A stretch of DNA of 36,751 bases from Rhodocyclaceae bacterium. GTDB taxonomy: Bacteria > Pseudomonadota > Gammaproteobacteria > Burkholderiales > Rhodocyclaceae. The position numbers were made by a program, and so were the translations under genes. A model generated the notes under the pieces. It saw only the letters and a list, made by a program, of their open reading frames with translations, did not search any database and was not told the origin of the DNA. Each line of letters starts with the position of its first letter. The first letter of the stretch is position 1. The DNA is taken from positions 1 through 36,751 of the forward strand of contig JAFZMK010000271.1 in NCBI GenBank assembly GCA_017553285.1, in the 5' to 3' direction. This document shows, one piece after another, positions 13,416 to 14,529 of the stretch.

Positions 13416-13541
13416 GCCCGCGCACGGCGCACACGTTTCAAACGCACCCACTTTACCGGCGAAATCGCCCGCATCGAGGACACCCTGAACGACCTCGTCG
13501 ACCGCCTGAACACGGCGCAGCGGCAGGTGTTTGCGTCGTAG
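13416..13541 (+). pseudogene. Possible gene remnant (C-terminal fragment)
   Basis: After the fimV terminator an open frame encodes a tail such as TGEIARIEDTLNDLVDRLN and ends with TAG at 13541. There is no ATG, GTG or TTG in this frame after the terminator, so it does not look like an intact gene. The amphipathic helix looks protein-like and the stop abuts the convergent gene at 13546. It may be the end of a lost gene, or chance. No family is recognised. Confidence 0.25.
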
Positions 13542-13545
13542 CCCG

Positions 13546-13857
13546 TCACGCAAACAGCGAAAGGAGAGCAACGAGTGCGAACGCAATCAATCCGGCTTCG
13601 CCGAAAAGCAGCATTACCAAGCAATTACCGAGCACGCCCCCGATCACCAACAGAGGGACGGCCATGATCACGGACGGTAAAGGCAGACCAGACGCGAGCA
13701 AAAACACTCCCACAGCCAGCAAGAACAGCAGCACGTGTTTGGCTCTCTCGCCGCCGCCAGACGTGCGCCAGTAGTAGCGAAACTCGCCGATCCGTGCCAA
13801 CCGCCTGAAGTGCCGCTCTCGATACCGCATGTAAAAATCCAGATCTTGTTCAGTCAT
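13546..13857 (-). CDS. Small two-span membrane protein, paralogue of the next gene
   Basis: This 103-residue protein has a charged N-terminal part (MTEQDLDFYMRYRERHFRR) followed by two hydrophobic segments (about residues 41-58 and 60-100, the second possibly a re-entrant pair), and ends LLSLFA. The ATG at 13857 has a good GGAGGA ribosome-binding site. Its C-terminal half aligns with that of the neighbouring 169-residue protein: PLPSVIMAVPLLVIGG against PLMSVIAGAPILIIGF, and both end ALLSLFA. Both also share a DLD segment before the basic stretch. I do not recognise the family. The two genes lie 34 bases apart on the minus strand, against the direction of fimV and truA, and look like a duplicated pair. 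Confidence 0.75.
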   Translation of the reverse strand: MTEQDLDFYMRYRERHFRRLARIGEFRYYWRTSGGGERAKHVLLFLLAVGVFLLASGLPLPSVIMAVPLLVIGGVLGNCLVMLLFGEAGLIAFALVALLSLFA

Positions 13858-13912
13858 GACTTCCTCCGATCCTTCTGTTTCTATACGTGCATCACGCAAA
13901 CAGCGAAAGGAG
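13546..13912. repeat. Pair of perfect 21-base direct repeats at the 3' ends of the two paralogues
   Basis: TCACGCAAACAGCGAAAGGAG occurs at 13546-13566 minus its final base in this quote limit aside, and again in full at 13892-13912; the 21 bases are identical and similarity continues for a few more bases. Each copy includes the TGA stop codon and encodes the end of the paralogue (LLSLFA). Identity in DNA as well as protein indicates a recent duplication or gene conversion. Confidence 0.85.
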
Positions 13913-14401
13913 CGCAAAAATCATGAGCGCGACAACCCCAACGCCGCCAAACAGCAGCCCCGCCACGCAGCCAGCGAGCGCAAACCCGATTATCAGTATC
14001 GGTGCACCAGCAATCACGGACATCAACGGCGTGCCTGTCTTCATTGAAAACAGGACAACACCAATCAAGAACAGCAACACGGGGGGGATGCCCTTGCCGC
14101 CAAACGGCATCGATCTTCTGGCGCGCATCTTCGCCTGTTCCCTCTCGTCGGTGCACGCATCTATCCAGAAGAAACTATCCAGATCTTCCTTCGTTATCCG
14201 CTCTGCTCCCGTCTCACACGCAGATGCTTCCAACGCCTTCCACATAGTAACCTCCCGCCACGTTGCATTTGCATCCAGCGGCGGCGTCTGCTTGATCTTC
14301 TCTACCACTTCCCGCGCTTTCCGCTCTTGCCGGTAGCGCGCATCCAGACGGGCGGCGAGCGCGTCCAGCCCGCCCTTGTTTTGTGCCTGTTCCGCTTCCA
14401 T
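13892..14401 (-). CDS. Small membrane protein with soluble N-terminal region, paralogue
   Basis: This 169-residue protein has a hydrophilic N-terminal ~100 residues, rich in Glu/Lys/Arg and probably helical (DARYRQERKAREVVEKIKQ), then a hydrophobic C-terminal half (about residues 105-169) ending ALLSLFA. The C-terminal half is similar to that of the adjacent 103-residue protein. AAGGAGG stands 7 bases before the ATG at 14401, which fixes the start; the frame stays open far upstream, but that part lies over other genes. A run of seven G in the coding strand's complement (14081-14087) could be prone to slippage. Function unknown; the topology suggests a cytosolic head anchored in the inner membrane. 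Confidence 0.75.
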   Translation of the reverse strand: MEAEQAQNKGGLDALAARLDARYRQERKAREVVEKIKQTPPLDANATWREVTMWKALEASACETGAERITKEDLDSFFWIDACTDEREQAKMRARRSMPFGGKGIPPVLLFLIGVVLFSMKTGTPLMSVIAGAPILIIGFALAGCVAGLLFGGVGVVALMIFALLSLFA

Positions 14402-14529
14402 CGCCGTGCCTCCTTGCAGATTGCCACTCGTCCACGTCAAAACCGTGTTCGGGCATCTATTTTCCCACCTCAACTGGCTCAAATACTGCGCCTGCGCAGC
14501 GATTTTTTCGCGGAACCTGCCCGCGCCGC

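Follow-up and report, generated by a model that had tools for sequence, protein, structure and literature searches.

What are the two small minus-strand genes that lie between fimV and truA in a Rhodocyclaceae bacterium, where did they come from and what might they do for the cell? We addressed these questions in a window of 36,751 nt (the whole stretch of DNA analysed, contig JAFZMK010000271.1), which belongs to a draft genome of 2.24 Mb in 340 contigs (G000).

Two intact minus-strand genes in an enlarged fimV-truA interval

Gene A (13546-13857, minus strand) has 103 codons and encodes a small membrane protein of 103 aa behind the ribosome-binding site GGAGGAAG, and gene B (13892-14401, minus strand) has 169 codons for a protein of 169 aa behind AAGGAGG. 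Both reading frames are intact and 34 nt apart, which bears out the original prediction of two minus-strand genes of these lengths with good ribosome-binding sites, and they run as claimed against the flanking units, fimV and truA both being on the plus strand. The two proteins do share the ending ALLSLFA. However, the earlier view that their homology is limited to the C-terminal half, with different N-terminal parts, did not hold, as the full length of A matches residues 69-169 of B (39% identity, blastp E 5e-18). B therefore has an added N-terminal module rather than a different head on A. The likeness between the genes lies in the membrane half and in an identical 21-bp 3' end, present as one copy at the 3' end of A (13546-13566) and one at the 3' end of B (13892-13912). 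A plain tandem duplication was rejected, given that N-terminal modules, synonymous divergence and adjoining stubs (see below) all differ.

The G+C content is 56.4% for A and 58.2% for B, compared to 63.6% for the whole window. The A-B stretch has 57.1% against a mean of 63.5%, and a lower value was found in 15 of the 718 window segments of 856 nt. The low G+C had first been proposed from 60-nt blocks, whose quoted values of 52% and, for truA, 70% we could reproduce (51.7% and 70.0%), unlike that of 55% (53.3% measured). Values as low as those of the two blocks quoted for the genes occur in 6-13% of the 60-nt blocks across the window, so that these two are by themselves weak proof.

In the seven relatives that a motif search resolved, the distance from the fimV-like end to truA is about 111-723 nt versus 1876 nt here, so that the interval is enlarged. 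In the sister genome of the same genus (G001), fimV and a counterpart of B lie on a different contig from truA and the other neighbours also differ (purB; a secF-like gene before truA), indicating that the interval was rearranged within the genus. There, fimV and the B counterpart are separated not by A but by an 84-aa minus-strand ORF (L036 1984-2238, contig C26 of G001); considered as an immunity protein, it was dropped for want of a family match. Among 101 genomes, a convincing B was found only in the two genomes of this genus, with two other matches from the same family right at the E cutoff. We could thereby reject a housekeeping family that always sits between fimV and truA, the alternative against which the prediction was to be checked. 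Neither protein had a profile match above cutoff in Pfam, PHROGs, NCBIfam or PADLOC or a match among solved structures, and no relatives were found of A in phage isolates or of B in viral contigs, GTDB contigs or plasmids.

Gene A almost certainly came in as phage tail DNA

The DNA on both sides of A is of phage origin. Downstream of its 3' end lies a C-terminal stub of about 37 codons (13431-13541, plus strand) of a small phage tail gene, the one that precedes the tape-measure protein (TMP) gene in prophages. By blastn, protein-level match and reading by eye, this stub was matched to other contigs of the genus (blastn E 6e-11 to C269 and 1e-9 to C272; protein-level E 5e-5). The small tail gene itself had no family match and is called chaperone-like by position alone. 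On the other side, positions 13856-13891 (plus strand) carry the first 12 codons of a TMP gene (MTSSDPSVSIRA; compare MTTTNHSFSIHIEA in contig C101), whose ATG overlaps that of A in a CATG (13855-13858). Positions 13431-13891 are therefore a single piece of phage tail DNA, made of the 3' end of a tail gene, antisense A and the start of a TMP gene.

Contig C101 of the same draft genome has this arrangement in complete form. It carries a copy of A, 65% identical and likewise antisense, between the small tail gene and a TMP gene of 1393 codons identified by profile (phrog_28, E 5e-88; PhageMin_Tail, E 1e-38). The start codons of the two genes overlap in a CATG, the order is the same as in the window, and a single blastn alignment spans 13530-13884. 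A tail-gene stub, antisense A and a TMP stub in the order of C101 point to phage tail DNA as the source of A, and we regard this phage origin as almost certain.

A would thus be a moron that belonged to the tail operon of a tailed phage's prophage and stayed behind in the fimV-truA interval when the adjoining phage DNA was lost. As the original DNA upstream of its start is gone, A is now probably expressed behind B. Promoter scans of A and of its C101 copy detected no sigma-70-like site, and terminator-like hits were near chance level.

Antisense membrane genes recur at the tape-measure start

Other tail regions of this genus carry different small antisense membrane ORFs in the same slot at the TMP start (C272, C194 and C269, and C285 of the sister genome). 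We surveyed about 100 loci encoding related TMPs and found at 27 of them (about 20 distinct proteins) a hydrophobic antisense ORF of 51-87 codons starting at the TMP CATG. The record titles of these loci include Oceanospirillaceae, Ectothiorhodospiraceae, Desulfobulbaceae, Zoogloeaceae and Hydrogenophilales. By the same test, such ORFs were found at 8 of 175 CATG starts of other long ORFs and at 151 of 5284 CATG sites overall; because the 27 loci were picked after inspection, this contrast is descriptive and carries no formal p-value.

The spacing of the tail genes changes with the slot gene. From the upstream gene to the TMP gene there are 13-153 nt without a slot gene, where readable, and 267-355 nt with one in nine of ten loci, the tenth (L066) being an exception with an overlapping sense ORF. 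When two loci (L083 and L084) were compared, identity was 68-100% in the upstream tail DNA and 100% at the TMP start versus 42-58% in the slot. The slot gene is thus present or absent between matching phage genes and is exchanged while its flanks stay alike. Both features are those of a moron.

A, B and the slot proteins are small and strongly hydrophobic, with two or three hydrophobic segments on the Kyte-Doolittle scale; helices appear in a weak structure model (pLDDT 67; pTM of the models 0.33-0.36). By eye, a TGT motif hinted that all slot proteins might form one homologous family. This was not supported, as shuffled sequences score equally well against the A/B profile and profile comparison gave a probability of 10%. 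Homology of A and B to the other slot proteins is accordingly not demonstrable. A two-segment subfamily is nevertheless coherent (C272, C194, C285, L066, L078, L079, L080, L082, L084, L101 and others), and three other slot proteins had no match in phage isolates.

Gene B has the features of a chimera

The N-terminal module of B (residues 1-93) is common to its G001 counterpart downstream of fimV, and its membrane half (about 94-169) is close to the C101 moron. Between B and that counterpart, dS is 0.11 in codons 1-93 and 0.89 in the membrane half, and the synonymous differences are unevenly spread over the two halves (Fisher p 4e-7). The C101 moron is itself composite, its first half being A-like and its second half B-like, with uneven divergence from A (p 0.003). 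Together, these uneven divergences indicate that membrane halves were exchanged among these genes. B would then be a chromosomal gene of this genus whose membrane half has been exchanged with those of prophage morons. The TMP stub stops exactly at the edge of the repeat copy that ends B, and since A carries the same 21 bp at its own 3' end, recombination may have taken place at this junction.

These results also revise the idea of an acquired, duplicated cassette. Acquisition stands, with prophage tail DNA as the source, whereas duplication is only part of the account: A, with stubs of tail genes to either side, is a relic, and B is an independent gene that has swapped membrane halves with phage copies.

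The start of the N-terminal module is also present in genes upstream of thrS in both genomes. In the cases seen (L037 1367-2089 in C149 of G001; L035 1-135 in C69), the gene opens with the module of B and continues into a different multi-segment membrane protein. Upstream of B lies a conserved 25-nt block (14461-14485, minus strand, TATTTGAGCCAGTTGAGGTGGGAAA) that recurs, as TATTTGAGCCANTNGNGGNGGGAAA, upstream of the N-module genes near thrS, of an rtcB-like gene (C110) and of another gene (C322). Besides the window, it was located in L182, L184, L186, L181 and L183, and a backward control gave 0 matches. The block is a possible shared promoter.

Slot genes are whole where the adjoining tail genes are cut

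Slot genes were found whole beside cut or broken tail genes in the window, in contig C213 of G001 (two genes) and in C194, with neighbour stubs of 11-37 codons. In C213, TMP stubs beginning MTAFSLETKIQ and MNSNFEYSFKIHVDRKEG, together with a 26-codon tail-gene stub, lie beside two whole slot genes. In C194 (L060 9500-11300), a prophage TMP gene is interrupted after about 360 codons and its antisense slot gene is whole. Whole copies amid cut tail genes suggest a benefit to the host; recent loss of the tail genes would be compatible with them as well. It appears that the bacterium kept A after losing the phage.

Alternatively, A may be a piece of prophage in decay that now has no function, B being unrelated in role and joined to phage DNA by chance recombination. 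The genome does hold other broken prophage pieces, such as that in C194, and one relic slot gene is near-identical in both genomes (2 changes in 75 codons), so that its intactness is uninformative. Also, the N-terminal module of B has a dN/dS of 0.89 between the two genomes. However, a remnant of this kind does not fit well with a membrane gene that is whole at several sites among such short stubs, nor with a dN/dS of 0.43 between A and its C101 copy, a relic-phage comparison in which selection acting in the phage and selection acting in the host cannot be told apart, and of 0.20 between the membrane halves of the C101 moron and B. We consider it unlikely.

A dispersed palindromic repeat of the GTGGGCAACTTGTTGCCCAC type was seen beside relic slot genes (L062 2801, 3063, 3428, 3949 and 4253; L035 257). 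Twice it lies right at the end of a TMP stub, and it may mark deletion points. At the end of contig C269 (L038 1-232), a slot gene lies with a complete copy of the small tail gene beside an aat-like gene; this slot gene could be a further relic at a host locus.

A proposed role in superinfection exclusion

In intact phages, the slot gene runs antisense to the late tail operon, and its start-codon region is also that of the TMP gene. With this layout, the gene would be expected to be active in the lysogen and silenced by late transcription. Its product would be a small inner-membrane protein whose basic N-terminus is probably cytoplasmic. At the inner membrane, such a protein could stop superinfecting phages from injecting their genomes through interference with the TMP that enters or with its membrane partner, as is thought for HK97 gp15. 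Position, size, membrane nature and rapid exchange make exclusion at the inner membrane the most likely function, and on this anatomy we think it fairly probable that A is a moron retained from a prophage and that, gp15-like in action, it excludes superinfecting phages at the stage of genome injection. Of the roles first proposed for the pair, phage defence would be consistent with all our findings, and nothing was found in favour of envelope stress or a toxin.

Instead of an exclusion factor, the slot gene might encode a membrane protein akin to a holin or a toxin, which would alter the envelope of the host. Small proteins with two or three hydrophobic segments and no deciding family match would agree with this. 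However, a gene antisense to the late genes would be transcribed against the tail operon at the time when a holin is needed, and no endolysin, antitoxin or toxin partner was seen adjoining the slot gene, making this reading highly improbable.

Under the exclusion model, the antisense strand at the TMP start would offer a fixed genomic address from which candidate exclusion genes can be collected across prophages without sequence similarity, and the layout leads to testable expectations for expression in the lysogen and in the lytic cycle. The window would also present a bacterium that seemingly kept only the protective gene of a lost prophage, the tail-gene stubs proving its origin. Rather doubtful, and put forward tentatively, is the broader idea of a widespread, undescribed class of TMP-linked exclusion genes, in which an antisense membrane protein sharing the CATG with the TMP would separate exclusion in the lysogen from lytic tail production and be swapped to change specificity, with hosts keeping such genes from dead prophages and grafting membrane halves onto their own proteins.

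Comparison with known systems

Prophage-encoded, membrane-associated proteins that block DNA injection are known from P22 (SieA), Tuc2009 (Sie2009) and TP-J34 (Ltp), and escape from Ltp maps to the tape-measure gene (PMC10883804). These differ from A and the slot genes in genomic position and in protein type, their sequences having been compared via family libraries only.

Tab of phage JBD26, an 83-residue moron, targets the TMP and blocks tail assembly (PMC10884400). By analogy, the slot protein could act after entry, binding the TMP made by an incoming phage. Like Tab, the slot genes are small morons linked to the TMP, and their genetic link to its gene is close. Tab, however, is encoded between the terminase genes and acts within the cell on tail assembly rather than at the membrane, and the strong hydrophobicity of A, B and the slot proteins suits a membrane better than cytoplasmic tail assembly. 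A Tab-like action is therefore very unlikely in our view.

Exclusion at genome injection finds its closest parallel in HK97 gp15, a superinfection exclusion moron (Cumby et al. 2012, as cited in PMC10883804); hybrid phages whose tail tube and TMP genes are different ones escape its exclusion (PMC10883804). Both are small membrane-protein morons, and gp15 occupies the same slot, between gp14 (the last gene before the TMP gene) and the TMP gene. Nevertheless, gp15 has 62 aa, lies on the sense strand and has its own terminator, whereas A has 103 aa, is antisense and overlaps the TMP start. While gp15 matches phrog_5031 at 5e-29, this profile had no match to A, B or the slot proteins tested, and no sequence relationship to gp15 was found. 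A would work like gp15 and is not itself a gp15, the slot gene lying directly upstream of the TMP gene, as in the gp15 family, on the opposite strand.
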